Source: Mya arenaria (taxonomy: Eukaryota; Mollusca; Bivalvia; Myida; Myidae). Taken from it: 64,000 nt of DNA. Below are positions 929-60,789 of this stretch, one piece after another (positions within the stretch are counted from its first letter, which is position 1; every line of letters begins with the position of its first letter). The notes beneath the pieces are model-generated. The model had not been told where the DNA came from. It searched no databases and saw nothing but the letters and a program-made list of their open reading frames with translations. Position numbers and translations under genes: made by a program. The DNA lies in the NCBI RefSeq assembly GCF_026914265.1, contig NC_069130.1, forward strand, positions 39,238,988-39,302,987, written 5' to 3'.

Positions 929-1147
929 CAAACAATTATTCTCTATGTATAATCATGTTACATGAACATTGTTAATGAAAGCATGATCTATGAACAGGAA
1001 ATAAAAAACAATAACAATTTCATTAAGTCCTGTACCCTGTACTTGTATGAATAAAACTTGCGTACGAAACAATGACCCTGATATATTGTAACAATGAATA
1101 TATACTTATATGTAATGATAAACATTAGCCATATCACATCCTTAGAT

Positions 1148-3158: not shown

Positions 3159-4301
3159 TATATAGTAAAAACTATTAACATGTTACAATGAACCATATGT
3201 TTACTTTTTTATAGTATTTAAAACAAAATACTCCAATGTATATTTTAAACATGATTGATTAATAAAGACCAATAAAAAACCAATTAATCTTACATTGCAT
3301 GTCACAAATTCTTTACTTTTCACTAAATTTAAATTAAAATTGCCTTCAGATACTTACCTTGTTTCCTTATAAAGTTCAAACACACATTTTAAACAGGTAT
3401 ATGAAACATTTGAGTCTAATTAATGACTTTATAGTCTTAAGTTTCAGCTATAACCGCAGTTATACACATTAAATATATCGTATAAAGTACCTCGGTAACT
3501 AAATTAATATTCATACGGTTAATTAACCCATAAAAATAATAACTTCAAATTAATGAATTATTATACCATCCAAGAATTTTTAATCTCACCTGAGAGAAAT
3601 ATATGAAGCGGTATGATGATACTTTATAAATTTGTGACAATAGCTTGTAGGTTTTCTTCAATTATCTCAGCTTAATGCCATACCCTATCCATTATCTTTG
3701 GGAACGGAACCATATGGGTACATATCTGACGCCTGCAAAAATATCCTTATCTGTAAAATTTGAAATTCGAAAGTTAAACTGTGTTGGTGCTTATAATGTA
3801 CCTTGGGTTCTCTGTTTAACATTTCAGAAAGTTTTATCACTCAAAATTTAACATGTAATAGGCCAAATGGTATTTTATCCTCGACTTAGCTGCATTTTTT
3901 TCTTCTGAATTAGAAGTCATATTCTCCATGGAATTACTTAAGCTACAATAATGGGTGTTCAGGTAAACATTTTTTTTTTATCATTTGGACATTTTTATTT
4001 TTTTTATGTAAATTAAGCCACTACTCTCTACAGTTAATCCCATGCCCACGCCAACAATATGAATTTATAACCTAATTTAAAAGCTTAAATTTAATTTAAA
4101 TTTCACAGAGTAATAAAAAAAATTATTTGCCTTATTTGCCTACCAATAACACATATTATTACCTCTCCCCCCATACAGTCATACAAGTAAGTTTACTTTG
4201 AATAACAGTATAGGGGAAAGAAAGTATTACAATTCACAAGTTCCACCAGTTCAGACTCAAAATTGATAAAATTTTCTTTGGGGAGTACCCCAAAATTCAG
4301 A

Positions 4302-13672: not shown

Positions 13673-13745
13673 TGATCCCGCTGAGGATTTAACTCAGGAC
13701 CTTCCGCGTGTTAAGCGGACGTGATAACCACTACACCACGGGATC
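13673..13745 (-). tRNA. tRNA-Val (AAC), copy 2, with a T-loop change
   Basis: Identical to copy 1 except that the T loop reads TTAAATC instead of TTCAATC, replacing the near-invariant C56, which normally pairs with G19 and is part of the B box promoter. All stems and the AAC anticodon are intact and a T6 terminator follows. It may be transcribed poorly or be on the way to becoming a pseudogene. Confidence 0.85.
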
Positions 13746-30864: not shown

Positions 30865-33800
30865 TAACCAACTCTAAAAACAGTAGGGTTGTCGCCTATT
30901 TCGCAGGTAAGGTCAGAAGACCTTAATCAAACATTTTTTTTTAAACCTAAGTTTAAGAACATAATGGGCTAATTGTTCAGAGCTTTATTAAGGTTAACAG
31001 CAATGTTTACGTCATCACTGTTAACTTTAAAATCTTTTCTGCTCTTGAAGTTTAATACTTGTGATCTGGAGATTTTCTAACAAAATTTGAGACAACTGTT
31101 TCAGCTTGAACTCTATTTAAAAAAATACATGAGAATGTCATCATCAATTTCACATCTGACAGTTAACAACAATGTCGTTCATCATTTTGTTATCTTAAAC
31201 AAAGTGGGTAGTAATCTGATTTGTTCATGGCTATCGAGCAGTTACCCTCGCTGTCGCTCTCTTGGAATAACTTTGTTTAAACTTGTAATATCATACATGA
31301 ACTATAACCTTTTCATACAAAATAATTCTGAGTTATTTTAATACCGGTAATCTACATGTTTATCTAAGAATGTTGTGCTACATCGTGTGTGTATGGAAGA
31401 CTTATTATAATCACAGAACTTACTGTCTATGCATACTAACTCTATTTCAAGTTATACTTAATGAACACATGTACTGTGAAATCATTAATGTTCGTGGGCA
31501 TGAAATTTCGTGGTTTGCCGAATAAAAACAATTTCGTGGGTACTTGAATTCGTGGATTTTCATTTTTGAAAAAAAAAATCCAAGATGCGATCGTCCTAGA
31601 TCGTCTGCATAATATCCACGCGCTGGCCCGAGATTTCCGTCTTCTACGTCACTCGGTTTATGACACTCGCTAATGTGGTATGACATGCTAATTAGTGCAT
31701 ATACCCATGTCACTTATCGATTTAATTGGGAATAAAGGTAATAAAAGAAGATGTACCCTGATCATAAATACAGATATGGGAAGCCATTGGATGCCAATTA
31801 AGAATTTTGCAAACTGTGAAAACACCGAAAAGGTGTGTATATTGTCAAGTTCGGTGCTTAGTAACCTTCCATGTACTAGTAATCGATTAATTATTTCATT
31901 AAATAAAAAAATCGAGTACAGACACTCATCACGCACATCTTGTAAACTTGGGAGATTTTCATAAACAGCACACGTTTAAACACGTGCTTATAACTGTCAT
32001 TTGCTGTATAAAACACATTTAATTGATTTGGTTCATTATTTGTTAAAGGCAGTTATAATATATTAACAGAATAATGATCGTAAGTTATACAGTGAGACAG
32101 GTTTAAACACTGTATACTGCGACCTCTGTAAATAATATACTATGTACGTAACAAGGCAATTGAAAAAGTGAATAAAGGGTTTATATTTCGTGGGATCTTG
32201 AATTCGTGGATCACCCAACCCACGAAAACCACGAACATTAATGCCCCACGAACATTAATGATTTCACAGTATAAGATTTGTTCCCCTTTCAATGACAAAA
32301 GTCAGACACTGAATATTTCCTATCATTCAGAACTCCTCATCCATTTTTTATCGAAATCAACCCCAGACATATGCCGTATATCTGAAGTAGTTCGTAAAAT
32401 TTTAAATAATAGTATTAATTAGATTTATTGTTTTAAAGTGTATTTCGGTATATATCTAAATTTAAAATGATTGCCAGTGAAGTGATTTATTGCATAAATA
32501 ATTCAGATTCCTAAGAGTATAGTCATTAAGTTTAACTGCTCAATTAAAATTACTAAGCGATCTATTTGCAGTGTAGTTAAATATAAGGATTTCAGACATA
32601 ATAAACCGTCAATATGACTCCGAGGTTGATTTCGATGGAAAATGGCCAAGGAGTTCCAAATGCTTTCCTATAATATAACTCATGATAGTTACGTCCCTTA
32701 CACCAGCTCAAGCCCTATGGGAAACACTTCATATAAGCATAGAGACCAAACAAAAAACCACTCCACTCTTCAAGGACATTTCCAGTCAAACTTACAATAA
32801 ATACCTCTGCATACAAATCTCTTGTGCTCAGACCCCTCTTGACATTATTGTTATCAAAGCCAATTATATCCATGTCAATGTTAACTCCTTACCCAGGGTG
32901 AGGAATCACGTGACTGCAAAAAGTTTTTCACATAGGTCACCAAGGGTCACAACCAATGTAAACAAACAAGTAAGTGATTTTATTTTCTAAATAACTTTTT
33001 TGACAGAAAAGATATGAAAACATTTCTTAGCCTGTAAAAGACTATGCTATTTTCTGCTTCTACATGTGTGAATATTTTAGATTTGCTTGTATTTAAATGA
33101 TGCAATCCTTGGCCAAAATTTCATCGAAGCATTGTCTACAAAATTCTGTCAAGTTGAAATTTCGCCGAACATTTCCCATTTGAAGTCACATGATTCCACA
33201 CGCTGTTACCATTCAAACCTATGTATAATACAGAAATTGAAAGCTCTTTATCAATACTGAATATCATCTTCCCTGTACATACATGCCATATTTCTGAGAG
33301 GCTTCCCAGGGAATTTGGGTCTGAATTCCAGGGGATTTTGATATTACACCAGGGGAATTTAGCGCGATATCTACATTCATGATATATTAAGAATAATTAC
33401 AGAAACACACTCTTCTTACAATAAATTTTGGACTAAGTCATCATGGTCCTTCATGGAATTTACACTCATAATGTTATGGCTGCTTTCCACTGTCAACCTT
33501 GAGCTAGTTTTTAAAAAAAAAATCAATAAAAATCCAGGGGCAGGGACGTGATTGACCTAACACCTGCAGGGCTGAAACCATTTCGGCCATGGGATCTTGG
33601 GGGTACTTTTGGGGTCAAAAGCAAACTGCCGTATAAGAAAAACTGGCTTTTTAGAAGCTCTTTTGAAGGTTCTTCTGACTTCAAATTTGAAGCAAACTGG
33701 AATATCAACACTTACACCCAAAAGCACTCTATAAACTTTTTATTTTTATTTTATTTTATTTATTTATTTTTTTTGGGGCGGGGGTGGGGGGGGGGGGGGG

Positions 33801-36800
33801 CATTAGATCCGCGGAATTCCCCCGGATATGGATACCCGGCAGGGGACCATGGGATGGCCCGGAATTCCAGGGGATTTTTCCCACTGCCGGGGGATATGGC
33901 ATGCATGCCTGTATCCGTGAAAACAAAGTACCGTAGAAATCCGGGTCCTTGGTTCCCTCAAGGCCCTGCATCAACATCTGAGTGAGGGCATCTACTTCTT
34001 GTTCCTTACTGCCAGTCCCACCCCGGGGCTCACCTCCAGCCCCACCCCGGGGGTCTAGAGAGGGTCGAGAGGCCTGCATGGGGGCTATTGGAGGAGGAGC
34101 ATATGACTGCTGACTGGGAGAATGCCTGCATTGAAAAGATATGTTCACATAATTACACATAAATTAACACAAAAGACAAAGCTTTAAACATGGATTTTTT
34201 CAACAATGATAACTCAAAAGGTAATTAACGCAGATTATCCAGTATTGTTATGTTCTATAAGGAAATTAGCATTTAAATAATGACCAAAATTAAGATCATT
34301 GTAAATTTGAAATTCATGAATTCTCAAAATCTGGAAGATTTTGACAAGACAGCTGTATTATCATAATAGGAATTGTTCTCAATCTCTTGTATTCAGACAG
34401 GCCAGACTTGATATACAAGTTACCAGGGATGTACATGTACACCTATTATGTTCAGGAAACTGGAAAATGAGCGAAGATAATGTGGGTTTGATCCCCATGG
34501 CCTCTCTTAATGTACTTTCTAGTTTCTACATGGTAAGTGAACTAGGGCATGATGCTATCAGCTTTTGTCTAAATTGAGCTTATAGAGAATCTAGCTAAAA
34601 AAATAAGTATAATATTAAAGTTAAGCCTTCAACACTATTGCACCTTTGATACTGTGCCGGACTGGGCTGCATGTACGTGTTGTCACTGTGAACATCCTGA
34701 ACCTTGATCTGTATAGGCATCTGGGGCCCCGGCTGGGCTCGCTCAGATCTGGGCTTCACCTGGGCGTATGTGACACCTGTGTCAGCTAGTGAGGCGTAGG
34801 TCACGCCTGAGCTAGACCCGTCCTGGTTAGAAGGGCTTGATGTGTATGCCAAAGGGCTCGGGGCACGGTTTGAAGAATACTGGCTGTAGTTGGCTGTAAA
34901 TACAATAAAGGAGGAATCTTGTACCTCTGTGTTTACCTTTTTCATCGTACAGCAACATGTACGATCCAAACCTTTTTTTAGCAGAGAAAATCACTTTTGT
35001 TCAGTCCTCTTTGAAACAAAAACTTTTGGGTAGGGTTTTTAGCTTAAGATGGAAGGGTGCTGCCTGTCATTTTTTGGTAGCACCCTTCTACCCTTATTGC
35101 CACCAGCATCAGCTGGTAGCATGGGTTCCCTTCTGCCTTCATAGAATTCAATCCTTAACACTAAATATCAGTCTTAAAAATTTGATTAGATCCTATAATA
35201 CGATTATAATATCTGTGGATACAACAAACATAATTGATGGTTTAAACCTAAAATTACTTCAATTAAACACAATTCTTAACATTTTTAATGTTAATGTTCA
35301 AGTTCTTCACAGCACCCTGTCCCTCTTCTGCAGCACCCTTTAGTGTTAGAAATTGTGCTTATTTGGAGGAATATTCGGTTTTAACTACTAAATATATAAA
35401 GTTTGTTTGAATTTATAATCATATTTCAAGTTTTAACAAAAAGAAGAAAAATTATTTGATTATCTTAAGCATTTAATTCTTTGAAGTCAGGTGGGTGCAC
35501 ATTCTGGTCTTCATGATGGCAGAAGGGCGCTTCCAAAATAGGACAGGGTGCGGTACCCACCGATAACCTTCTAGCTAAAACCATACAAATGGTACACAAT
35601 TTTCACCCACCATTAGAGCTATATGTTTGTGGCTGTCCATATGAGACAGGGCTCGACTTGTAGATACCAGGATCATATGAGCCCGAACTATACGTGCTGG
35701 GCTGGCTGGTGTAGCCACCATAGTTGCCTGTTGATGAGTAGTTTGTGGCGTACGGCGAGGATCGGGGAGAAGATTTACCGCTACCTGTAAACAGTAGGCA
35801 ACTCAACATAATTCTTGTGAATCTTATTATTGTATTACCTGTAGGTAACTTTTCTTATTACAATAGCCATGGATGAATAAATAAAAGACTATTTGTCCAT
35901 GCCCAAAGATGAGCCTTAGTTCTATAATGTTTATCACCCTGGTTATGTTCAAAGTTTTTCTACAATAACAATGTTGAATAAAAAGTTCAAAACAATAGAA
36001 GAAAGTAAAAAAAATGCCTGTTAAAAAGTGGCAGTGTCATTGACATTGCTTGGTGCATTTAAACCTCATTCCACCAATAATAAGTGTTGTTTTTGTACAA
36101 TAAGAGGTATTCAAAAGACATTACAATAATTGGAAAATCACATATAAAAATAATTGTTGCCAAGTAATTTTGGTGACATCAATTCAATTTTTTGTAACCC
36201 AGCATTTTAGTAAACCGAATGCTACATTACTATTTTTAAGTGATACATGAACTAAAATGATGAAAAAATGACAGGAGTGAAATAACATCAGTAAAATAAC
36301 ATCATATTTCACCGAAAAGCTAAACAAGAGCTGTCACAGAGACAGCGTGCTCGAGTATTCCGCCGCTTTTCGGTGTATGGATTGAAAAGTTTTGGCAAAA
36401 CATGCATAGATCAATGTTAGATTAGATTTTAATGCAATAAATGATGTGCTGAGATATTTACATAAATTGAATGGAAAATATTTGAGGTTGTACGCAAACT
36501 TTAACGTAAATTCTAAGTCGAAAAAGGGGCATAATTTTGTCAAAATGCTTGATAGAGTTATCTCCTCCAGTGTACAGGTTGGGGGCATAATGGTAAACAA
36601 TTGTGCAAAGTTTCAAAGCCAGATGTCAATGGACTTTGAAAATATTTGAGGTGGTACGCAAACTTTAACATAAATTCTAAGTAAAAAAAGGGCCATAATT
36701 TTGTCAAAATGCTTGATAAAGTTACCTCCTCCTGTGTACAGGGTGGGGGCATGATGTTGAACAAGTGTGCAAAGTTTTAAAGCAATATGTCAATATTTGA

Positions 36801-45748: not shown

Positions 45749-45961
45749 ATGACCATGATTTTGACCACATTGAGTCTGGTTATGATATTATTTACATCGT
45801 CGGCGGCCGGAGAGAAAGTTCTGGGTGAAGAAACGGACGAGTTTGATTTCGACGGTCTTCCTGGAGCCCAGCATGAGTTCAAGATTGAAATAGGAGCTGG
45901 GAGGGAAGAGTGTTTCTACCAGAAGATCGTGGCTGGTGGAAAGATCCACGTATCGTTTGAG
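45749..45961 (+). CDS. TMED: TMED exon 1: signal peptide and start of GOLD domain
   Basis: Opens MTMILTTLSLVMILFTSSAAG, a clear signal peptide, then HEFKIEIGAGREECFYQKIV and ends HVSFE, donor GAG|GTTGGT in phase 0. The upstream ATG is used; a second ATG two codons later is also possible. The cysteine of ECFYQ is the first of the conserved GOLD disulfide. Confidence 0.93.
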
Positions 45962-48900
45962 GTTGGTAATATAAAATGAACTTTAAAGCTGCACTCTCAC
46001 AAATATACCATTTTTACATTTTTTTTGTCTTGGAAAGAGCAACTTTTTGCGTAAATATCTGCAAACCAATGATATAAGATTGATGACAAAAAATCAGATC
46101 GTAGATTTTCATATTTCTGTTCAAAAAATAATGGTTAATGGCTACTAAGGGTTTAAGAAAAATGCATAAAACATCAATTTTTAAACTTAAATATAAAAAT
46201 CTGCGATCTATTTTTTGTCAGCAGTCTTATATAACAAGTTTCCATGGAATTTCGCTAAAAATTGGCTCGTTCAAAGACAATAAAAAGTTGTCAAAGCGTC
46301 CAATCTGTGAGAGTGCAGCTTTAAGAAATTATATATCTTACGTATTGTTACACAATATTTAAGCGTGCGTTCTTTGTTTGTGTTTATACGTTAACTCCAT
46401 TATCTGCACGGTAACCAAGAGGGCGGAGCTTGACCGTTCAATAAGTTGCGTGCGGATAAGCTAAAATGATATCCATATATATATATATATACGCACGGCA
46501 CTTGTTAAACTCCGTCCCTGTAATATGGCACAAAATTGGTACCACTACCACAACAACTTCCCAGCAGCCTTGTGGTTAAAATCATACAACTCCGAATACA
46601 TGTATTTGTATTATACTATGTGGAATACACGTTTAATACTATGTGGAATACATGTATAATACTATGTGGAATACAAGTATAATACTATGTGGAATACATG
46701 TACACTACTATGTGGAATACATGTATAATACTCTGTGGAATACATGTATAATACTTTGTGGAATACATGTATAATACTTTGTGGAATACATGAACAATAC
46801 TATGTTGAATAAATGTACAATACTATGTGGAATACATGTATAATACTCTGTTGAATAAATGTACAATACTATGTGGAATACATGTATAATGCTTTGTGGA
46901 ATACATGTATAATACTATGTGGAATACATGTATAATGCTTTGTGGAATACATGTATAATACTATGTGGAATACATGTATAATGCTTTGTGGAATACATGT
47001 ATAATACTTTGTGGAATACATGTACTATACTATGTGGAATACATGTATAATGCTTTGTGGAATACATGTATAATACTATGTGGAATACATGTATAATACT
47101 ATGTGGAATACATGTACAATACTATATGGAATACATGTATAATACTTTGTGGAATACATGTACTATACTTTGTGGAATACATGTACTATACTATGTGGAA
47201 TACATGTATAATGCTTTGTGGAATACATGTATAATACTATGTGGAATACATGTATAATACTATGTGGAATACATGTATAATGCTTTGTGGAATACATGTA
47301 TAATGCTTTGTGGAATACATGTATAATACTATGTGGAATACATGTATAATACTATGTGGAATACATGTATAATGCTTTGTGGAATACATGTATAATACTT
47401 TGTGGAATACATGTACAATACTATGTGGAATACATGTATAATGCTTTGTGGAATACATGTATAATACTATGTGGAATACATGTATAATACTATGTGGAAT
47501 ACATGTATAATACTTTGTGGAATACATGTACAATACTATGTGGAATACATGTACTATACTATGTTGCCAGGAATACATGTATTGTTTATTTAAACGTTCA
47601 AACTTTATATTTTATTTCTATGCACTTCTTAACAGTTGCCTGAAGCGCAAGTTTATCTAGTGCTTAATACAAGGTGGTCGATGTTCGAACTTAATGATTA
47701 TAATCAGTAAAGCTAAACATTCCCTTAAATTTAAGTTAGTTAAACAAAGGGTATTGGATGCAACTGTAACTCCCCTCCCCTCGTTGCTAACTAAATACCA
47801 TATACTGTGTTATAGGATTTCAATCAGAGTCTTGCGTAGCAACTATTAAATGACTGAGACTGCTTACCAAATATTGCTATATTTAGATTTTTTGTGTACC
47901 TCAGTTTCTTTCTTCTCACTTCTCGTGTAAGCTACGTTAAAGCTGCACTCTCACAGATTTACTGTTTTGACAACTTTTTTTATTTTTTGTCTTGGAATGA
48001 GAAAATTTCTGCCTAAATATCTGCAAACCAGTGATATAAGACTGCTGACAAAAGATCAAATTGCAGATTTTCATATTTCCGTAGAAAATTAATGTTTTAT
48101 GGCTTAAACCGTTACTAGCGGTTTAAGAAAAATGCATAAAACATCATATTTATTTTAACTTAAATATGAAAATCTGCGATCTGATTTTTTGTCAGCAGTC
48201 TTATATCACTGGTTTGCAGATATTTACGCAAAAATTGGTTCATTCCAAGACAAAAAAAGGTTGTCAAAGCGGTAAATCTGTGAGAGTGCAGCTTTAAAAC
48301 ATACTTTGAATTATTATTTTTCGAATTTCTGGAAAGGCATTATTTAATTTTAAAGCTGCACTCTCACAGATTAAACGTTTTGACAACGTTTTTATTTTTT
48401 TGTCTTGGAACGAGCCATTTTTTGCGAAAATGCATGGTAACCAGTTATATAAGACAGCTGACAAAAAATAAGTCGCAGATTTTTATATTTAGTTCAAAAC
48501 GGTTTAAGCCATAAAACATTAGTTTTCGAGCGGAAATATGAAAGTCTGCGATCTGATCTTTTGTCAGCAATCTTATATCATTGGTTTGCAGCCAGTTACG
48601 CAAAAAAATGCTCTTTCCAAGACAAAAAATAAAAAAAGTTGTAAAATTGGTAAATCGGTGAGAGTGCAGCTTTAAGGTAATCCAATATAAAAATGCTACT
48701 GGTAAAGTTTGTTTAAACGTTACACAATGTTAAGTTTGCATGTTATTAAAGTTTTCACCGTCTTTGCATCCTAATGGTGGATGGCTTACCTTTGGACTCA
48801 CTGAAATTAAAACTATTGATTTGTAATTGACGTTATAATTGTAACTGAAGGAAAGCTGTCCGACACTGCATACATACATGTTTATTGGCTGTTCCGTAAC

Positions 48901-51900
48901 CTCTTTTACTGTTTTCTTTTTAATTTATTGATTTTTTTACGTGAAACCGATTCTGGTCAAGGCCTAGAAATGTTTTTTTTAGGGTAGCATCCCCAAAATT
49001 ATTTGGTATGGTAGGTAGGGATTTCATTTTCCCAGATGTACTTTGACGATATCATTTTCTTGCAAATAGCACTATATTTTGCAAATGTCACTCATATATT
49101 GCTGTTGCTATGGAGCTTTATTCCATGTCAAAAAGTTAATTTCAGTTTATGTTTAAACAAAATTATGTACTAGGGTCGGCGTCTATTATTCGGTAAGGTC
49201 GGGTTACCCGAAACAATGTTTTTTGTAAGGGCTTATGTGAAATTGAATCGTAAGCATATTCTTTTTACATGACAGGGGGACATCAAAGGATGACAAATGC
49301 GCATATCAACCATATGTGACGCCTCCCCCGGGCATTTAAACACATGTTCACATGTCACAACATAATTATATTGAAAATTCTCTGTTGTACCACACTGATT
49401 TTTTTTCGATATTTACAAAGCCCTTTGCCTTCCAAAATGGAAAAATCTTTGTGAGCAATTAAATTTTTGTATATTTCCTTCAAGAAAACCGCGTCACAGT
49501 ATTAGGAAAATATTATGTTGTTGTTTTTCTGACTGAAAAATTGACCAGTCCTTTTAAGGCATACACAATTCGGAACTCCTCGGTCATTTTTATCGAAAAA
49601 AAACATCGGATGTATTTGGACGCTTTACAATGTCAGAAATCGGTACACTTTAAGTCCGCCGCAAGTAGATCGCGTAGTTATTTAATTTAGCACTTAAACT
49701 TAATGGCTTAACTCATAGGCATCTTTTGTTATGATTATGTTTGCAATTATACACTTCACTGGCAATTAATTTAAACTTAGATCAACAAGTACAAGCTACA
49801 ACACTACATTTAATTACTGATGTAATTAAAAAAATACGAACTATACTGATGTTCCGGCATACATCCTCTCTGTTATTGTTATTCGATATGTTAGATATGT
49901 TTGTTATTCATGTCTGAAAATAGCTCATTGAGCTAATATTTCTTGTTAACACATACCCGACTTTAAATAAAGATTCTTGTATCTTGTATCTTGTTGGTTT
50001 CGATAAAAATGGAGGAGCTCCGAATGAACGAAATGCACCAGTCAATTGTAACCACGGCCCAAGAGGTCCGGGTGTATACCGGGGAAAGACGGGGAAATGG
50101 GCCGTGTTTTTACTTTCCAGGTGGCCCCGCAGTGCCGGGTGACTGCGGTGGGTTTGTCTTCACGCTAAATGTAGCGGGAAATTGGTCTTATCTAGGGTCC
50201 CATGGGTGCGGGGGCATTTGGCGGGTTTTTTACCAGCAGATTGTCCCCGCAGGGCGGAGACTTTGCACGGGCTTGGCTCGACCAAAAGTAAGTCAAAGTC
50301 CCCGCTATACCTCGGACCTGGGGGGGGGGGCGTGGTTACAAGTGACTGGTGCATAAACAAATCCCCGACTATAGGATATATGTACAACTATTTTTTTCTG
50401 GCTTGTTTTTGAAAATAGAATACAGATTTAGCATATTTATCCAACATTACAATGATATAAAAGCGATTGTGTAAAGTGGCTTTTCTTGTGGCAACTGCAT
50501 GCCTCATTCGGAACTCCTCGGTCATTTTTTTTCGGAAGTGTATTATTGCAAACATAATTAGGATTCTCAAGAGTTAAATCATGAGTTCCGAATATTGTGC
50601 CTACAAATACCGGAAAGTGGAGAGCATTCTTCTCGAGGTTTGTAATGGCCAAAACATTAGGAAAAAATATTTCACGACGGTCTTTTTTTTTCGAAGTGAA
50701 GATTGAGTTATTAACCGAAACTAGACGAAAATTTAATTTCACGACGGTCCAATATTTCTTAATATATACAATTTAAAGAGCAAACCAATTCATCATTCTA
50801 AATTATTTTATTGGGAAATACATCATTACATATGTTTTGAATTTTATAAATACAGTATACTATACACTTACACATACTTTAATTTTCTAATAAATTTTAA
50901 GCTTGGGTTTTTGGTATAAGATTGAGATCAATTTCTTTTTTTTCTATTATAATAACACAGTTCTGTTTCTTTTAACTATTGGTCCATCGAGTATTTCCCC
51001 ACACCACCTTCAGCAATCACTTGTTAGCTGCAATGTTCATTGTAAGTTTCTTGAATTGCTTGCAGTAGTAAAACATGGGCCCCGTTATGATGATCATGAG
51101 CACCACACCGTGAAGGTACTTTATCTGGAATGACAAAAAGATAAAGACATATTAAATAATATAATTTTTAATTATATCAGTTATTACGAATAATCAGGCT
51201 GTTTAATACTAGTTACAGTCTCTCCAAGGTTTTTATTAGTTACAGTTCCCTATAGTTAGTACTAGGTACAGTTCCCCATGGTTAGTACTAGTTACAGTTT
51301 CCATGGTTAGTACTTAATTGTTCCTGTTACCCATGATTAGTACTTGTTACGGTTCCCCCTGGGTAGCACGAGTTACAGTTACCCATGGTTAGTACTAGTT
51401 ACAGTCACCCATGGTTAGTACTAGTTACTGTTACCCATGGTTAGTACTAGTTACAGTTTCCATGGTTAGTACTAGTTACTGTTACCCATGGTTAGTACTA
51501 GTTACAATACCCCCTGGGAAGTACGAGTTACAGTTACCCATGGTTAGTACTTGTTACAGTTCCCCTTGGGTAGCACTATTTACAGTTTCGCATGGTTAGT
51601 ACTACTAGTTACAGTTCCCCCTTGGTAGCACTAGTTACAGTTCCCCATGGTTAGTACTAGTTACAGTTCCCATAGTTAGTACTACTAGTTACAGTTCCCT
51701 CTGGGTAGCACTACTGCAGTTACAGTTCCCCATGGTTAGTACTAATTACAGTTCTCATGGTTAGTACTATTAGGTATAGTCCCCATGGTTAGTACTACTG
51801 TTACAGTTACCCATCATGGCATGGGTTGTACTAGTAATTGTTACCCATGGTTAGTACTAGTTACGGTTTCCCCGCGGTAGCACTAGTTACAGTTTCCCTT

Positions 51901-54900
51901 GGGTAGCACTTGTTACAGTTCCCCCTGGGTAGCACTACTGCAGTTACAGTTCCCCATGGTTAGTACTAGTTACAATTCCCATGGTTAGTAATACTAGATA
52001 CAGTCTGTCCCCATGGTTAGTACTGGTTACAGTCTCCATGGTTAGTACTAGTTACAGTCTCCATGGTTAGTACTTGTTACAGTCTCAATGGTTAGTACTA
52101 GTTACAGTTTCCATGGTTAGTACTAGTTACAGTCTCCATGGTTAGTACTAGTTACAGCCACCATGGTTTGTACTAGTTACAGTCTCCATGGTTAGTAGTA
52201 GTTACAGTCCCCATGGTTACTACTAGTTACAGTCTCCATGGTTAGTACTAGTTACAGTCCCCATGGTTACTACTAGTTACAGTCTCCATGGTTAGTACTA
52301 GTTACAGTCCCCATGGTTAGTACTAGTTACAGTCTCCATGGTTAGTACTATTAGTTACAGTTTGAATGGAATTGAATTGCCATTTGTAAATCCTGAATGA
52401 TTTTGATGGTTCTCGAAACAGTTGCATTGTAATTTCCTTATTTATAACAGAATAAAGCTAAGGTCATTACTTTTGTTTAGTTTTTATTTGAATAAATAAT
52501 ATTTTTTTTTAAGTTAGTGGCCCGTTTAGTTTAATCTTCAAATACTTTTCTGTCAAGAAATAACAATAAAGCATAAAGACATTTTGAACGATCAAAGTTC
52601 GACTTCATCATCAACTTTATGTATATATTATACATGAATTGATATTGTAAGAAAACGTACGTTTTTCGGCATGCGGTACTTGGGAAGTCCATATGTAAAT
52701 TTGGCCTGCTGAATAAGCGTAGAGCGATGTGTAAAAGTCATCAGACCTTTTGAAATTTGACCCAGTCCTCGCATTGTGCTTGTTATGCAAGGTTATTTAG
52801 CGGAAGTAGCATTATAATTTCTACGTCATATCCGGCAGATTGATAATGACGTAATGGCACTGCCCTATTGTTGATAATTTAATTGAAGTTTGTTAAAAGA
52901 AACGTATTTTAAAATAACTGTTTAATAGTATATTATTTGTGAAGTTTTAAAAAGAAATCTCTGCTTCATTTTCTCCAGTATATTTCTACCGTTATTGTGT
53001 ATAAATCTACCATTTTTTATAGCGGAAAGCGGAGAGCTGGGGTGGGGGCTGAAATTTGTCAAAATTTTACGAGGTGAGGGCCAATCCCACCATACCAACT
53101 TCGCAATATAAGTATACCCCCCCCCCCCCCCCTAAAATCGTCAAAGTTTACTGTTTATTTCAATTCAGGTGTATACAATAAAATACGCCCGCAATGCACT
53201 ATTTAGGACTAAAGGTTTTTTCTGGAGGGACTAACCCCTAAAACCCATCCATGCACTATATAAACCAAATGTATTTTAGTTCTGAGGGAGCGGTAAAGGT
53301 CAAAAGGTTACGCCCCTTATCTACGTCCTCTCTAGTGTCAAATCTTGGAGCCGCCCCTGGGGAGCACGTCCTCAGTAGCGGGCCCAAGGTACAATCCCTC
53401 TGTCATCAAAACCTGAGCTCTCCTGTTAAAGATATATTTTAATATTTACATTCATTTGCTCACTATAGACTTAGTGAACTTTTCCTAATTCTTGACCAAC
53501 GCTGTCATAAAATGCTCTCTACTTTTCGTCAAATTTATTAATACGCATATTTATATCATTTACTTCTTGTAGTGCCTATACTGACGTTTTCGATGTGTAT
53601 CATTTTTAGGTTTCTTTAATTTTAGCTTGAAAATAACAACAATTTTAACCCTCTATGATTACCTATGGTGGCATACAACTGCCGTAAGATAACCTGTTAA
53701 AGCTGCACTCTCACAGATATACCATTTTTACAACTTTTTTATTTTTATTTTTTTGTCTTGGAAAGAGCAAATATTTGCACAAATATCTGCAAATAAATGA
53801 TATAAGATTGCTGACAAAAATCAGATCGTAAATTGTCATATTTCCGTTCGAAAATTAATGTTTTATTGCTTAAACCGTTACTAACGGGTTAAGAAAAATG
53901 CCTAAAACATCATTTTTTGAACTGAAATATAAAAATCTGCGATCTAATTTTTTTTGTCAGCAGTCTAATTAACTGGTTTCCATGGATTTTCGCAAAAATT
54001 GGCTCGTTCCAAGACAAAAAATAAATAAGCTGTCAAAACGTTCAATCTGTAAGAGTGCAGCTTAAATAAATAACGTCAGCGGATTGTTTCGTGTTTACCA
54101 CTTAATTTTCGCCATAATTATCTAGCTTTCTAGTTAATATTCGTGTTACCTTTTTGGAAAGATAAATATCAAGAGACTAAAAAATGGCTTGAAAATGCCC
54201 AGAACTGTCACATATTATCTTTTTACACAACACTAACACGATAACTAGTTTATGGTTTTCGAAATCCACTAAATAAGTAATGCACCAGTCAATTGTAACC
54301 ACGGCCCCTCCAGGTACGGGGTATACCAGGGAAATGGGCCGAGTTTTTACCTTTCAGGTGGCCCCGCAGTGCCGGGTGAATGCGTTGGTTTTGTCTTCGT
54401 TTTAAATATAGCGGGAAATTGGCCTTATCTAGGGTCCCTGGGGTGCGGGGGCATTTGGCGGGGATTTTACCATCTGTTTGTCCCCGCAGAGCGGGGATTT
54501 TAGCCGGGGTTGGCTGGACCGAAAGTCAAAGTCCCCGCTATTCCCCGGACCTGGGAGAGCCGTGGTTTCAATTGACTGGTGCATAACCTACATGTACTAA
54601 CTGGTTAACGTAATAAGATTCGTGTTACCACTTAGCTAACAGGTTATCTTACGGCAGTGTTTATGCCACATTTTTACCCTTTTCCCTATTCATTGCACGT
54701 ATTGTATATTAGTATGACTATAAATGATAAAAATATGATAATAATATTTTCATTTTTAGAATGCAGCATATACGATGTAGTTATTATTAAAGGTATTGGA
54801 GGGCGGGAGCATCGACGTGTACATGCCCAACCTCTTCAACCCCCAGGGTCACCATCTTGACCAATCGACAGGGGAATCGGACGGGGTCTTGTTGACAATG

Positions 54901-57900
54901 GCTGACGTCACCGGTAACCATGCCTACCGACTAATATTTTGGCGTGGACAATTTATTTACAGCATGGCAGTGGTGGCAGAATATGTTTTAAGCTATTAGA
55001 TATACAATCATGTAAATATTGGATTCATGGTGATTCCATTTTGTTGAAGTGGTACCATTTGAAAGGACTTTATGGGTATAAAAACAATCAGTACAAACTA
55101 TACCGAAAACAATATCGGAAACAAGTTATTTAAGCATTTATTCGGATCTCCTCGGCCATTTTTATCGAAAGCAACCTCGGATGTATATGGACGGTTTACA
55201 ATGTCAGAAATCGGTACACTTTAATTACGCTGCAATCTCTTTATGTATAATGTATTTAATGTCATTTATTTTGGCATTGGTGCGTTTACCGATTGGCATT
55301 GGTGCGTTCACCGATTGGCATTGGTGCGTTCACCGATTGGCATTGGTGAGTTCACCGATTGGCATTGGTGAGTTCACCGATTGGCATTGGTGAGTTCACC
55401 GATTGGAATTGGTGCGTCGACCGATTCGCATTGGTGCCTCTACCGATTGGCATTGGTGGGTCCACCGATTGGAATTGGTGCGTTCACCGATTCGCATTGG
55501 TGCCTCTACCGATTGGCATTGGTGGGTCCATCGATTGGAATTGGTGAGTTCACCGATTGGAATTGGTGCGTCGACCGATTCGCATTGGTGCCTGTACCGA
55601 TTGGCATTGGTGCCTCTACCGATTGGCATTGGTGAGTTCACCGATTGGCATTGGTGAGTTCACCGTTTGGCATTGGTGGGTCCACCGATTGGAATTGGTG
55701 CGTTCACCGATTCGCATTGGTGCCTCTACCGATTGGCATTGGTGGGTCCACCGATTGGAATTGGTGAGTTCACCGATTGGCATTGGTGAGTTCACCGATT
55801 GGCATTGGTGGGTCCACCGATTGGCATTGGTGCCTCTACCGATTGGCATTGGTGAGTTCACCGATTGGCATTGGTGAGTTCACCGATTGGCATTGGTGGG
55901 TCCACCGATTGGAATTGGTGCGTCGACCGATTCGCATTGGTGCCTCTACCGATTGGCATTGGTGAGTTCACCGATTGGCATTGGTGCGTTCACCGATTGG
56001 AATTGGTGCGTCGACCGATTCGCATTGGTGCCTCTACCGATTGGCATTGGTGGGTCCACCGATTTGAATTGGTGCGTCGACCGATTCGCATTGATGCCTC
56101 TACCGATTGGCATTGGTGGGTCCACCGACTGGAATTGGTGCGTCGACCGATTCGCATTGGTGCCTCTACCGATTGGCATTGGTGAGTTCACCGATTGGCA
56201 TTGGTGCGTTCACCAATTGGAATTGGTGCGTCGACCGATTCGCATTGGTGCCTCTACCGATTGGCATTGGTGGGTCCACCGATTGGAATTTGTGCGTCGA
56301 CCGATTGGCATTGGTGCCTCTACCGATTGGCATTGGTGCCTCTACCGATTGGCATTGGTGCCTCTACCGATTGGCATTGGTTGGTCCACCGATTTATACT
56401 AACAACACTAGTATCAACTAACATCAAGGGGCAGAGTTACTATAGTTAACTCATTACACGGGACAATGTTGTTGTTGAAGGCTATTATAGTTAGGCCATA
56501 TCAAATTAAATATATGTTTAGCGTTACATTCATATTTCAAAACATACATACTCGGATGAAGAAAAAAACAAGTGCCGTAAAAAGGATTGTCTTTGCTAAG
56601 TAAGTATCTAATATCTATGGGACTAACATGTAACATAACCACTGACTTGATAACATAATATGAAACATACAAGATACAAGACTCTTTATTTAAAGTCGGG
56701 TGTATGCTGACAAGAAACATTAGCTCAATGAGGTATTTTTCGACATAATAACAAACATGCATACCATATCAAGCATAATATAGCGCTGGTGATCAGGAAA
56801 ATAACTCAACAGGCTGAACAACACATAACTTCCATGGTATCAAGGTACATTCGGAACTCCTCGGCCATTTTCCATCGACGACAACCTCGGATGTATATGG
56901 ACAGTTACATTGTCAGAAATCTAAACATTTAACTACGCTGCAAGTAGATCGCGTAGTAATTTCAATTTAGCAGTTAAACTGAATGACTTTACTCTTGGGA
57001 ATCAATATTATTTATGCAATAATCATGTGACACTATAATGACTATCAGTTTAGACTTGGTAATAAACAATACACGTTAAAACACTTCAATTATTAATATT
57101 CTTATTCAAAATCTTACGAACTACTTCTACCGATGAACCGCCATACATCCGAGGTTATTTTCGATGGAAAATGGCCGAGAAGTTCCGAATGATCAAATTA
57201 CTTACTTCAATAGGTTAGAACGCATGTGAGTTATCTTTGCTAGATAGGTCAGTTGGTATAATATCTGACTTGTCAGAATGGGTCCCGGGTTTAATCCCAA
57301 GAAATGCCACGTACTTTCCGGATCTTGTGGCATTACTAGCTTTGCTAAAAAATAATGACCCCTGATTTAACGGGTTTCAACACAGGTTCTACGCGGAGGG
57401 GACGGGAATTCCGCCCTGTATCTGCTCGACCATGACCACGTCACGGACCGGATATCCGTCCTTGAGAAGACGGACCAGGTGCCCCGCGGGGGCTTCCAGT
57501 ATGGGCCCTTCGAGGAAACAAGTAATACGGGCTCTCCATGGGAAACACCTGTCGGGGCTTGACCTACATAATTCCGTTCCTCGACTTCTCTTTCCCTCCA
57601 AACCCTTAATGGTTTCTGTCTATACCTTCAGCCGTTTGTCATATTTAGTTTCCCTGGTTCCTTAGCTTAATGACCATTTGGTAGATGGAATCCTTCTTCC
57701 TCTCTAGCCATGGCGTGGGTCTTGTGGAACATCTTTAGTTTTGCAGTGAAACTTTTCTCCTGGTGCAGTATTCCCGAACGTATTAAGTCTTAGTTTGACT
57801 CTCAGACTCAGAAAACTGCATTCTTAAATATACTTTGACTACAGACATGCGTTTGAGTTCAGCACATATTATTTGTAACAGATACACCATTTGTATCCAT

Positions 57901-60789
57901 ATTTGCTCATAAAAATTAACATTTTAATTACTACAGTCGAAATTCGTTGGCTCGATATCCCTGGGACCAGTCAAAATACCTCGAGCCTCGCGAGTTTCGA
58001 GCAAAGCGGGAATGCGCACACAGAGTAAAATAAAACCTGTCATTCAATCGAGCCAACAAGGAAATCGAGCCAAGCGAAATCGAGCCAACGGGTTTCGCCT
58101 GCTGCTGATCAAATATCAATCGTTAAAAATCGGTAATTTCCGGCAAGCTTCGGAATAGGCTGTTGGAGTGATACGAGTGTAAAAACATATGGAAATACTA
58201 TGTATTTTAGAATCAAAGCAATACGTTTTTATTATTTTGTTTATTCCTTCCTCAGCGTTTTCCAGAAACTAAAAATGCTGTCCTTGGTTGTATGCATGCT
58301 CTTTAAATTGTATGCATGAATATGGCTAGCACGGGAAATGTTTGCATGTATACGCGTGTGCACGGGGAATGTCTGCATGTTTGTTTGTGCATGTTTGTAG
58401 GTGTTAAGGGGAGGTGATCAACTCATGGACTTTTACATTCGGAAACCCTCGCTCATTACCCCGGTACAGGAGGCCCGAGCGACGGAACGCTGGATAGCGG
58501 TAGTTGATCCCGAGGAAGAAGGTACCCAAACACCGCCCCATATGGTTAATTTGTTGTAGCATTGCTGCGTTTTAAGTCTTTGTGTGGTGTTGGTATAACA
58601 ATCACGTTGAACATTGATATTATTTGTTTGTTATGGGCTGTTATTCAATATTGGTCTTAATTGAATATAAAAGCGATGTAGCTAATCGGATAAATGTTTT
58701 TTTTAATTACTGACCAAAAGAATGATTGAAGTCAATGATGTATAAATTAAGTTGAATATTGAATAACCAAAAACATTTTAATGAATTTAAAATTTCTAAA
58801 AAAAAAATAATCAAAATATAAATATGATATGTATGCTCTATAAGATTACATAAGTTCACATTACAACCCCACGCAGGGCCGTACGCGATATGTCTGGACA
58901 ACACCCAGTCGAGAATGGCCTCAAAGTTGGTATATGTGTACCTGGTTACCTACGTGGAGGAGGAATGGTCCAAGTACAGACAGGAAATTGAAGATCTCTC
59001 GTTGACAGTCTCTAACTTTACAGTAAGTTATCTCCTCTGTTTCGTAGAAAGCAAAGAACATTAGAAACTAGCGCGTAGAAAGAGGGACCCCTCTGAATAT
59101 TTCAAGTCAAATTATGTATTTCCATATTGTAAAATCAGCCTGCATTGTACCATATTTTTGGAAAAACTTTCACAACACAATACTGAGTATTTTCAGTACC
59201 GAGGAATAAGTCGCAACTTGAGGAGGGGGAGTACGTGCCAAGTTGCGTCCCTTTAACGCCGCCCCATGTTGTCTTTGCGTCCTTATACGCCACGTATGAC
59301 TATAGGGCTATTTTTTAACCATACATTCAGTCACTTACAAGTATGTTGTTGTCTTCACTGATTGCACCATGTTGGGGAGAGTGTCCTTTGATTTTATTTT
59401 CACATTACCGCCAATATCGAAATAGTATCAAGTAGGCGGAGCTTATGCGTGCGATAAGTAGAGTGCCGATAAATTACAACGCTGTTCACTTTATATACAT
59501 CTATATATAAATGAAAGCTAGTTATTAAACGTTGCTCTTGACAGCGTTTGACTAAACAGTCATTCGAAACTCCTCGGCCATTTTTATCGAAAACAACCTC
59601 GGATGTATGCCGGTACACCGGAAGAAGTAGTTCGTATTTTTTTTTAATTATATCATTAATCAAATGTAGTGTTTAAGCTTGTATTTAATGATCTAAGTTT
59701 AAATTGATTGCCAGTAAAGTGTATTATTGCAGACGTAACTAAGATTCCCAAGACATTAAGTTTAACTGCTAAATTAAATTACTACGCGATCTACTTGCAG
59801 CGGACTTTAACATATCAATTTTTGAGTATGTAAACCGTCCAAATACATCCGATGTTGTTTTCGAGAAAAATTGACGCGGAGTTCCGAATGACTAAACAGT
59901 TTCTTAATCCATCGACCTTGTGATTAAAAATGATAAATCTCGCGGCACGCGCTCGTGTATAATCTTCATAACTCGAGCAACGGATGCAGACACTATTACA
60001 GTGCCAGGAAATACTAAGTAACGGTATTCATTACGACTTAATATAATACATTTTGATATAATGGAATTATTTCACTGGTTAGCAACGGAATACCTAGAAC
60101 CGTTTTCGTATAAAAATTCTGAATAAATGGAGTTCTTTAACTGATTAGCCATCAGAGGTGTAGCTAGCCCTCTATTTATATGGATTCATAATTGTGCTGG
60201 GGGAGTGTACCGGGGGCATGCCCACACGGACATTTTTGAAAAACCATGGTGCAATCTGGTGCATCCTGGGCGTTATGAGGTGCCTTATTTAGTACTGGAA
60301 AAAAGACAGTATTAGGATCATGTAGTCAAGAACGCATACTGCATCGGTTTTAATTTTGTTTTTGTCAAAATTATGTGGATTCAGTCGCGTACCCGCGTAT
60401 AGGCAGCTACGCGCCTGGCCATGCACTACTAAGTAACCGTATTCTTTTAGAGTTCTGATAAAAATATGGAGTTCTTTCACTGACAAGCCTCGAACTACTT
60501 AGAATCGGTAATCGTTGAAAGTCCGGTAAATGAAGAATATATTTATACTTTTCAGGACACAATCCAGCACGTGCAAGAATCAATCACGGACGCTCTCGTG
60601 CACCAGGCCAAGAGTCGTATGGATGTTATTCGCGACTGGTATACGATAACGGGAAATAACTCTTACGTTCAACGTTGGTCCATGTGTCAATGTGTAGTTG
60701 TCGTTCTTAGTGCTTGCATTCAAGTTTACTTCGTGCGAAGACTGTTTAGATTCACGACTGTCACTGGAACACATAAACCAAGGGCATAG
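45749..60789 (+). CDS. TMED: p24/TMED cargo receptor with three alternative GOLD exons, whole gene
   Basis: A type I membrane protein of the early secretory pathway; p24 proteins act as cargo and coat adaptors between ER and Golgi. Exon 1 gives the signal peptide (MTMILTTLSLVMILFTSSAA) and the start of the GOLD domain with GREECFYQ. Exon 2 (2a, 2b or 2c) continues it from VLxGG. Exon 3 gives PYAICLDN and most of the coiled coil. Exon 4 gives the rest of the coiled coil, the transmembrane helix (WSMCQCVVVVLSACIQVYF, about 201-219) and a short tail VRRLFRF... The product is 237 residues with 2a or 2c and 242 with 2b. The invariant p24 cysteine pair is in constant exons 1 and 3. Exon 1 and the tail look most like the gamma group (TMED1/5). 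The tail has aromatic residues but no C-terminal KKxx. Confidence 0.93.
45987..46320. mobile_element. piggyBac-type palindromic MITE, copy 3
   Basis: TTAA|AGCTGCACTCTCACAA ... GTGAGAGTGCAGCT|TTAA, inserted 25 bases after the TMED exon 1 donor. Confidence 0.85.
46607..47562. repeat. Minisatellite, 23-bp unit, about 42 copies
   Basis: Unit TGTGGAATACATGTATAATA plus CTA. Two main variants, one with TACTATG and one with TGCTTTG, alternate in irregular blocks. Lies in TMED intron 1. Confidence 0.96.
47941..48293. mobile_element. piggyBac-type palindromic MITE, copy 4
   Basis: TTAA|AGCTGCACTCTCACAGAT ... AATCTGTGAGAGTGCAGCT|TTAA with well-preserved inverted halves. Confidence 0.88.
48354..48671. 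mobile_element. piggyBac-type palindromic MITE, copy 5
   Basis: TTAA|AGCTGCACTCTCACAGAT ... GGTGAGAGTGCAGCT|TTAA, only 60 bp from copy 4 in the same intron. Confidence 0.87.
48672..49567. other. TMED intron 1, no recognised feature
   Basis: AT-rich intronic DNA. GGTATGGTAGGTAGGGAT near 49005 resembles text near 17905 and may be an old repeat. Confidence 0.45.
49568..50026. mobile_element. Mutator-type MITE family B, copy with an inserted retroposon-like tail
   Basis: Ends ATTCGGAACTCCTCGGTC and GGAGGAGCTCCGAATG. The right part is interrupted at about 49866-49995 by sequence ending CTTTAAATAAAGATTC and a (TTGTATC)n tail; the same tail is seen inverted at 56669-56770. Confidence 0.75.
50034..50353. 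mobile_element. GC-rich TIR element family E, copy 1
   Basis: TGCACCAGTCAATTGTAACC at the left and GTTACAAGTGACTGGTGCA at the right are inverted ends of a GC-rich, 320-bp element (GTGGCCCCGCAGTGCCGGGT, GTCCCCGC phrases). It sits 7 bp from the preceding element. The open frames in it mirror its high GC content and are not genes; the second copy at 54281 does not keep them. Confidence 0.8.
50504..50593. mobile_element. Mutator-type MITE family B, short deleted copy
   Basis: CATTCGGAACTCCTCGGTC to ATGAGTTCCGAAT with most of the middle lost. Confidence 0.6.
51206..52360. repeat. Minisatellite, about 25-bp unit, about 46 copies
   Basis: Unit GTTAGTACTAGTTACAGT plus CTCCATG, with length variation in the pyrimidine part (TCCCC, TTCCCC, CC). 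Contains palindromic ACTAGT and CCATGG. In TMED intron 1. Confidence 0.95.
52361..53130. other. TMED intron 1, no recognised feature
   Basis: AT-rich intronic sequence ending in a C run at 53106-53130. On the minus strand ATG with GCATGCCG near 52670 is not accompanied by a coding-like frame. Confidence 0.4.
53131..53361 (-). mobile_element. Dispersed GCGGATCC-type element, partial
   Basis: Starts AAAATCGTCAAAGTTTAC and ends CTTGGAGCCGCCCCTGG, matching 7821-8100 in order and orientation. The left end is replaced by a C run. Confidence 0.65.
53701..54061. mobile_element. piggyBac-type palindromic MITE, copy 6 (nested)
   Basis: TTAA|AGCTGCACTCTCACAGAT ... CTGTAAGAGTGCAGC|TTAA. Confidence 0.85.
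54281..54583. mobile_element. GC-rich TIR element family E, copy 2 (nested)
   Basis: TGCACCAGTCAATTGTAACC ... CAATTGACTGGTGCA: its two ends are a better match to each other than in copy 1. About 300 bp, same GC-rich phrases. Confidence 0.8.
54793..54913 (+). CDS. TMED: TMED alternative exon 2a (GOLD domain)
   Basis: Acceptor TTATTATTAAAG, 121 bases, donor ACCG|GTAACC; phase 0 in, phase 1 out. Codes VLEGGSIDVYMPNLFNPQGH, then a GESDGVLLTMADVT stretch and the first base of a glycine codon. The closest of the three to a canonical p24 GOLD segment (P-Q-G and E-S-D-G-V motifs). No cysteine. Confidence 0.9.
55137..55236. mobile_element. Mutator-type MITE family B, left half only
   Basis: ATTCGGATCTCCTCGGCC to TACGCTGCAA, after which the family sequence stops and within about 40 bp the 22-bp minisatellite begins. 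Confidence 0.7.
55272..56393. repeat. Minisatellite, 22-bp unit, about 51 copies
   Basis: Unit ACCGATTGGCATTGGTGNNN with the five-base insert varying among GTTCA, CCTCT, GTCGA and GTCCA. A multi-unit order (GTCGA-CCTCT-GTCCA) recurs, so a higher-order period exists. Open frames on both strands are artefacts. Lies between TMED exons 2a and 2b. Confidence 0.96.
56669..56770 (-). mobile_element. Retroposon-like tail
   Basis: (GATACAA)n followed by GACTCTTTATTTAAAGTCGG is the inverse of the tail found at 49866-49995. Confidence 0.5.
56848..57191. mobile_element. Mutator-type MITE family B
   Basis: CATTCGGAACTCCTCGGCCA ... TGGCCGAGAAGTTCCGAATG with about 50-bp inverted ends and no coding capacity. 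Confidence 0.8.
57236..57310 (+). mobile_element. tRNA-like SINE head
   Basis: GCTAGATAGGTCAGTTGGTA has an A-box shape and GGGTTTAATCCC is close to a B box about 35 bases on. The anticodon region is not a clean 7-base loop, so it is a SINE or relic rather than a tRNA gene. Lies just upstream of TMED exon 2b. Confidence 0.45.
57386..57521 (+). CDS. TMED: TMED alternative exon 2b (GOLD domain)
   Basis: Acceptor GGGTTTCAACACAG, 136 bases, donor ACAA|GTAATA; phase 0 in, phase 1 out, as for 2a and 2c. Codes VLRGGDGNSALYLLDHDHVT, DRISVLEKTDQVPRGG and FQYGPFEET. Five codons longer than the other two and GC-richer than its surroundings. The pyrimidine tract is weak and the donor only fair, so this copy could be rarely used; the open frame and matching phases argue it is real. 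Confidence 0.75.
57780..57905. repeat. Diverged copy of the GACTCAGACTC-type repeat
   Basis: TTGACTCTCAGACTCAGAAA and ATATTATTTGTAACAGATAC match the family seen at 20814-22110. Confidence 0.45.
58401..58521 (+). CDS. TMED: TMED alternative exon 2c (GOLD domain)
   Basis: Acceptor TGCATGTTTGTAG, 121 bases (the same length as 2a), donor GAAG|GTACCC; phase 0 in, phase 1 out. Codes VLRGGDQLMDFYIRKPSLIT, PVQEARATERWIAVVDPEEE and the first base of a glycine codon. D-F-Y-I-x-x-P and E-E-G-P-Y fit the p24 pattern. No cysteine. Confidence 0.88.
58877..59022 (+). CDS. TMED: TMED exon 3: end of GOLD domain and coiled coil
   Basis: Acceptor CCCCACGCAG, coding PYAICLDNTQSRMASKLVYV, then YLVTYVEEEWSKYRQEIEDL and SLTVSNFT; donor ACA|GTAAGT in phase 0. 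I-C-L-D-N holds the second conserved GOLD cysteine and the L-rich part starts the coiled coil. Constant in all forms. Confidence 0.93.
59561..59890. mobile_element. Mutator-type MITE family B with a clean target duplication
   Basis: CATTCGAAACTCCTCGGCCA ... GACGCGGAGTTCCGAATG, flanked on both sides by ACTAAACAGT (59551-59560 and 59891-59900), a 10-bp duplication of the size Mutator-like elements make. In TMED intron 3. Confidence 0.88.
60150..60420. mobile_element. Possible dispersed element
   Basis: AGGTGTAGCTAGCCC at the left loosely mirrors GGCAGCTACGCGCCTGGCC at the right, around GTGTACCGGGGGCATGCCC. The borders are uncertain. Confidence 0.3.
60556..60789 (+). CDS. TMED: TMED exon 4: coiled coil, transmembrane helix and tail
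   Basis: Acceptor ATACTTTTCAG, coding DTIQHVQESITDALVHQAKS ... NNSYVQRWSMCQC, the hydrophobic VVVVLSACIQVYF and the tail VRRLFRFTTVTGTHKPRA, stop TAG at 60787. W-S-M-x-x-x-x-x-x-V ... Q-V-Y matches the p24 membrane anchor. The tail has a basic-aromatic VRRLFRF stretch but lacks a terminal dilysine. Confidence 0.93.
   Translation, partial: DTIQHVQESITDALVHQAKSRMDVIRDWYTITGNNSYVQRWSMCQCVVVVLSACIQVYFVRRLFRFTTVTGTHKPRA

Follow-up and report, generated by a model that had tools for sequence, protein, structure and literature searches.

A gamma-p24 gene of Mya arenaria with three tandem versions of its second exon, probably used one per mRNA

A single gamma-p24 gene of the bivalve Mya arenaria contains three tandem versions of its second exon, and comparison of the genomic sequence with public protein records makes it very likely that one version is used per mRNA. 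The gene lies on the forward strand of the window, a stretch of 64,000 nucleotides of contig NC_069130.1 (positions 39,238,988 to 39,302,987), which belongs to a genome assembly of 1.2 Gb in 18 contigs. The parts of the gene considered here are listed below in coordinates of the window.

45749..45961, plus strand: exon 1, constant; start codon, hydrophobic N-terminus and early GOLD domain with the first conserved cysteine; ends in phase 0
54793..54913, plus strand: exon 2a, alternative; 40 residues plus 1 nt; a type, apparently fast-evolving; corresponds to public isoform X2
54914..57385, plus strand: intron between 2a and 2b; contains a 22-bp minisatellite at 55271-56394
57386..57521, plus strand: exon 2b, alternative; 45 residues plus 1 nt; b type; corresponds to public isoform X1
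57522..58400, plus strand: intron between 2b and 2c; 879 nt
58401..58521, plus strand: exon 2c, alternative; 40 residues plus 1 nt; c type; matches the exon of Dreissena isoform X3
58522..58876, plus strand: intron between 2c and exon 3; 355 nt
58877..59022, plus strand: exon 3, constant; end of the GOLD domain with the second conserved cysteine, and start of the next region
60556..60789, plus strand: exon 4, constant; remaining lumenal part, putative membrane span, short tail ending in KPRA, stop codon

The second slot of the gene, between exons 1 and 3, holds three exons, all of which run from phase 0 to phase 1. Each has a length of 1 mod 3, is open and is bounded by AG and GT, and the G+C content of the three (0.55-0.62) stands out against that of their 150-base flanks (0.27-0.45). 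Exon coordinates, phases and splice dinucleotides had been proposed by an earlier reading of the DNA alone, termed the sequence-only reading in the following, and all were found to be correct on recheck. The common VLxGG start described there is present in 2a, 2b and 2c, and the likeness between 2b and 2c extends to VLRGGD.

The introns of the gene contain minisatellites at 46607-47564 (23-bp units, about 42 copies), at 51203-52350 (25-bp units, about 43 copies) and, between 2a and 2b, at 55271-56394 (22-bp units, about 51 copies). For 88 nt of the 22-bp minisatellite a fold of -38.5 kcal/mol was calculated, a value without shuffled control. Two short patterns of one element are found in both orientations within and after the gene (55150, 56859, 57156, 59572, 60900, and 61213), recurring as a small inverted-repeat transposon would. 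Elsewhere in the window, a very long array of short-unit repeats (988-3196) produces spurious ORFs of large size on either strand, and a tRNA gene or a copy of one is located on the minus strand at 13673-13745 (61.3 bits). Two further open frames on the minus strand (33756-34160 and 34595-34969) show no Pfam match; they are reminiscent of a zyxin/LPP-like LIM protein in its N-terminal region.

The isoforms containing 2a, 2b and 2c match the Pfam family EMP24_GP25L (PF01105) with 100.4, 87.5 and 100.1 bits, respectively, at a cut-off of 25.9, and 67 out of 67 aligned relatives match this family at E <= 0.001. When the profile of these 67 proteins was compared with solved chains, TMED5 scored highest (121 bits), followed by TMED2 (80 bits) and TMED1 (GOLD only, 74 bits), and the lowest scores were obtained for TMED9 (37 bits) and TMED10 (30 bits). 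With all three isoforms falling into the p24 family and TMED5 being the solved chain closest to the profile, the gene is, by its profile scores, a TMED5/6-like, logjam-like gamma-p24. The translation shows hydrophobic stretches at the N-terminus and in the C-terminal part. The KPRA end, in which each position is at least 90% conserved over the 67 relatives, also occurs in Lingula and Owenia. Two cysteines, C55 and C122 (numbering of the Mya protein P0001), are invariant in the 67 aligned proteins. C55 is encoded by the constant exon 1 and C122 by the constant exon 3, with exon 2 situated in between, so that the variable segment is indeed bracketed by constant cysteines, as had been suggested from the DNA. 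In human TMED5, each exon 2 aligns to one common segment, in the case of 2b with gaps.

Two of the three versions are represented among the public proteins of Mya: isoform X1 (P0001) is letter-identical to the 2b protein and isoform X2 (P0002) is letter-identical to the 2a protein, exon 1 being the same in both. The isoform labels denote database models. Multiple isoforms are also on record for five other bivalves. Among 17 proteins from six bivalve species, all within-species pairs (17 of 17) differ only in the exon-2 segment and the junction residue. Three isoforms, of the b, a and c types, are recorded for Dreissena, four isoforms for Ruditapes, three for Mizuhopecten, two for Argopecten and at least three for Mercenaria, where the labels go up to X5. 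No exon-2 swap beyond the six species was detected among the matches listed (90%-identity clusters; best 120 of 397). For two records from insects named isoform X1, no sibling is among these matches.

Ruditapes and Mercenaria each possess a separate p24 protein that carries a b-type exon (P0015 and P0115, respectively). A stand-alone b-type paralogue of this kind was sought in Mya and rejected, a genome search with P0015 matching only the gene of the window (7 candidates scored). Other p24 matches of the Mya genome are paired on contig C11, at 67.88 and 68.85 Mb and at 28.63 and 30.41 Mb; in one of these pairs a single open frame covers the whole domain, and in the other each member has one TGA inside.

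On translation, single use of 2a, 2b or 2c leads to a full p24 of 237, 242 or 237 residues, respectively, and each of the other five combinations tested shifts the frame and reaches a stop after 113-127 residues. This stop is located about five codons into 2c if 2a or 2b is joined to 2c, 16 codons into 2b if 2a is joined to 2b, inside 2b if all three are used together, and late in exon 3 if all versions are skipped. The stops that the sequence-only reading had assigned to the three pairwise joins and to full skipping are thus all reproduced. Its conclusion that only single use gives a full p24 holds for the five combinations. An exception is the partial GenBank model P0016, which is without exon 1: here 2a, cut short by a donor after 54885, is fused in frame with 2c, so that double use of exon 2 is not impossible.

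How far the three exons stand out from chance differs between them. An exon-2 HMM, built from peptides of relatives with Mya excluded, was run against 1183 AG...GT cassettes of phase 0 to 1 from both strands of the window. Exon 2b ranked first (40.2 bits, E 1.8e-11) and 2c second (35.2 bits, E 6.6e-10); 2a came third at noise level, with 5.8 bits and an E of 1, equal to a chance cassette. In a stop-to-stop scan of the 2099 frames of the window, the exon-2 model matched significantly at 2b and 2c alone, 2a was not among the best six rows, and exons 1, 3 and 4 gave one significant match each. A fourth exon 2, or a second exon 1, 3 or 4, did not rise above background in the HMM scans of the window. 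A genome search with Dreissena X3 found 2c at this locus with an E of 5.9e-13, whereas no other match in the exon-2 region had an E better than 4.7 (12 candidates scored), and a search with an a-type query from Mercenaria did not find 2a. Exon 2a is accepted as real because the public protein X2 is identical to its translation.

Comparison between species reveals a similar gradation. Between Mya and Dreissena, the protein identity amounts to 92% for the mature part of exon 1, 90% for exon 3 and 71% for exon 4, and within the second slot to 71% for 2b (32/45), 80% for 2c (32/40) and 35% for 2a (14/40). The corresponding values between Mya and Ruditapes are 70% for exon 4, 63% for 2b, 51% for 2c (20/39 identical residues against the longer c exon of Ruditapes) and 34% for 2a. 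Judged by these identities, 2b, and at the shorter distance also 2c, has been kept about as firmly as exon 4. Exon 2a, by the same comparison, is a fast-evolving sequence, and of the three it is the one least securely assigned to a type. Among themselves, 2a, 2b and 2c of Mya are 25-30% identical, which bears out the strong divergence noticed in the DNA; beyond their first five residues 2b and 2c show no significant likeness (z 1.7), and homology among the three Mya exons does not reach significance by itself either. Broken versions of 2b and 2c in related species would have spoken against the sequence-only reading; in the proteins on record, Dreissena and Ruditapes instead have uninterrupted b and c exons. 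Types shared across species accord with the proposal that the exons are old and have been kept open, 2a being poorly conserved.

The age of the cassette was approached with two trees, each based on only 39-40 columns. Tree 1 comprises 35 hand-chosen exon-2 peptides, whose types had been named beforehand from pairwise similarity; tree 2 was calculated with a mixture model from 32 rows, three long rows having been dropped. In both, exons of one type cluster together across species, and exons of one species do not, with support values of 98/88 for b, 96/92 for c and 80/78 for a in tree 1, and of 98/90, 91/88 and 88/81, respectively, in tree 2. A clade uniting 2a, 2b and 2c of Mya is rejected by the AU test with p 4e-6 in tree 1 and p 3e-11 in tree 2. 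Tree 1 likewise rejects a clade of Dreissena X1-X3 (p 5e-4) and one of Ruditapes X1/X2/X4 (p 6e-4). Single forks are unsure because of the small number of columns and the flagged long branches: tree 1 carries flags for long branches meeting and for an unsettled bootstrap, and tree 2 carries one for the long row of Mya 2a. Mya belongs to the Imparidentia, order Myida, as does Dreissena to Myida, and Ruditapes and Mactra belong to Venerida. Since the types group across these species and a Mya clade is rejected, the cassette is, by sequence comparison, probably older than the split between Myida and Venerida. The scallop isoforms form types of their own without clearly joining the types of the clams. 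They constitute a group in tree 1 (44/87) and are not one group in tree 2, and this inconsistency makes independent origins of the clam and scallop cassettes possible.

In the mechanism suggested by these results, splicing would pick one exon 2 for each mRNA, and transcripts with two versions or none would be lost via premature stops. Exon 2c, by orthology, would be used in Mya too. The exchange of about 40 residues between the disulphide cysteines would then alter what the lumenal GOLD domain binds, be it cargo, Tango1 or a p24 partner, with the other parts of the protein staying constant across the isoforms. The swap may accordingly tune cargo choice, anchoring or the choice of partner.

It is quite conceivable, though somewhat short of an even chance, that the swap tunes complex assembly or anchoring at ER exits, involving partner p24s and Tango1, and not the choice of cargo. 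In TMED9, as described in the available portion of PMC11414720, a cargo contact is made by the β2 strand after the first cysteine, through E52, three residues behind C49. Counting residues from the first cysteine, the equivalent contact in the clam protein would fall in the constant exon 1 and not in exon 2. Moreover, Drosophila gamma-p24 Logjam binds Tango1 through its GOLD domain (PMC10932740, in the part available), and GOLD domains are reported to mediate TMED dimers in the accessible text of PMC7045115. However, one contact in TMED9 says little about the cargo of a gamma-p24, since exon 2 could hold others, and the portion of PMC10932740 cited above also makes the case that p24s may be held to each other by something other than GOLD.

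Somewhat less probable, yet well worth weighing, is the absence of any active exclusivity. Exon 2 versions would then be included at random, and the reading frame, by way of premature stops and mRNA decay, would remove double and zero use; the cassette itself would be the passive outcome of duplicating an exon flanked by a phase 0 and a phase 1 intron. The uniform length of 1 mod 3 is what the slot demands of any exon. The splice sites are compatible with such leakiness: scored with a consensus matrix that has a maximum of 8.64 and is indicative only, the donors of exons 1, 2a, 2b and 2c reach 0.05-1.14, which exceeds 89-93% of the GT sites of the window, and these low values would fit regulated as well as leaky exon choice. 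With lengths of 355-2472 nt, the introns exceed what simple steric exclusion would tolerate. Paired intronic sequences that could enforce exclusivity had been envisaged by the sequence-only reading, and none convincing emerged from 28 pairs of intron pieces, where a single pair fell below z -2 (z -2.8), as expected from multiple testing. However, all three types have been retained in different species, which suggests that none of them is produced only in negligible quantity.

It is improbable that only 2a and 2b work in Mya and that 2c, albeit conserved, is silent or very rare. A full-length 2c isoform of Mya was not present in two protein searches (69 and 70 proteins), and the donor of 2c is the lowest of five scored (0.05 of 8.64 in the indicative matrix). 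Against this stand the open frame of 2c with its AG and GT ends, the 32 of 40 residues shared with the c exon of Dreissena, and the c-type proteins found in Dreissena, Ruditapes and Mactra and on a contig of 1298 nt. The latter encodes a full-length c-type protein (P0014) and is too short for kilobase introns, thus probably representing a spliced transcript.

The view of one gene with three exons for single use, at which the sequence-only reading had arrived, is supported by Mya X1 and X2, by five other bivalves and by the conserved types, with the qualification that 2c enters it in Mya by orthology only.

That the exons are remnants of tandem whole-gene duplicates, or belong to separate genes wrongly joined, is hardly credible: unionid and abalone relatives do comprise several distinct full-length proteins, some of them on equally long contigs, but in the Mya window exons 1, 3 and 4 score once each, a genome search with P0001 matches only this locus (6 candidates scored, E <= 0.001), and the constant parts are letter-identical between the isoforms.

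Taking the gene as a cassette for single use, a wider and rather doubtful reading would regard the bivalve cassette as a cell-type secretion code, in which every type of secretory cell would choose its exon 2 and so give one p24 complex a different lumenal face for a different set of products. As part of the same tentative reading, other lineages would reach a similar variety by copies of the whole gene, as in unionids and abalones, or by swapping another exon, as in Owenia. In the annelid Owenia fusiformis, the p24 family proteins P0060 and P0072 are identical in 112 N-terminal and 77 C-terminal residues and differ only in 49-50 residues matching exon 3, as if Owenia swaps exon 3.

Tandem alternative exons, p24 proteins and the clam isoforms deposited in databases are already known. 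Among the open-literature matches listed (titles and abstract starts), none deals with a p24/TMED gene whose exons are alternative or mutually exclusive, in line with the earlier remark that no description of a p24 gene of such design was known. On the questions of what p24 GOLD domains recognize and why the gamma subfamily is so diverse, the clam gene provides natural matched proteins, which differ only by about 40 residues flanked by the GOLD cysteines and are of types common to Myida and Venerida, and a comparison of the partners of these isoforms would assign binding directly to the exon-2 segment. Moreover, the range of tandem alternative exons would come to include the early secretory pathway, in the form of a cargo receptor.

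Mutually exclusive exons are also known from Dscam and muscle myosin, and to our knowledge the Mya variants, being 25-30% identical, are more diverged than typical tandem exon cases. The clam gene resembles the mutually exclusive tandem exons treated in PMC9741552 (available portion) in that exons of the same slot and phase generate proteins differing in one segment, with old types being kept. Among tandem duplicated exon substitutions no p24 case was seen, the main text of that article giving 0 hits for TMED. With the gamma p24/TMED proteins (TMED1/3/5/6/7 and Drosophila logjam) it shares a near-full-length EMP24_GP25L domain and the two GOLD cysteines; unlike in these, the central GOLD segment of the clam gene exists in three exon versions. 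In the accessible portion of PMC7045115, diversity of p24 proteins is described as arising via separate genes, and the word 'isoform' occurs 0 times. A functional parallel is offered by TbERP3 and TbERP4 of Trypanosoma brucei, where, according to the available text of PMC5506558, one p24 is exchanged and the rest of the set is kept, as in the swap of the clam. This exchange is stage-specific and has been proposed there to fit different GPI anchors. However, in T. brucei it is brought about by separate genes and post-transcriptional control (PMC5506558, same portion), whereas the clam would achieve it with alternative exons.
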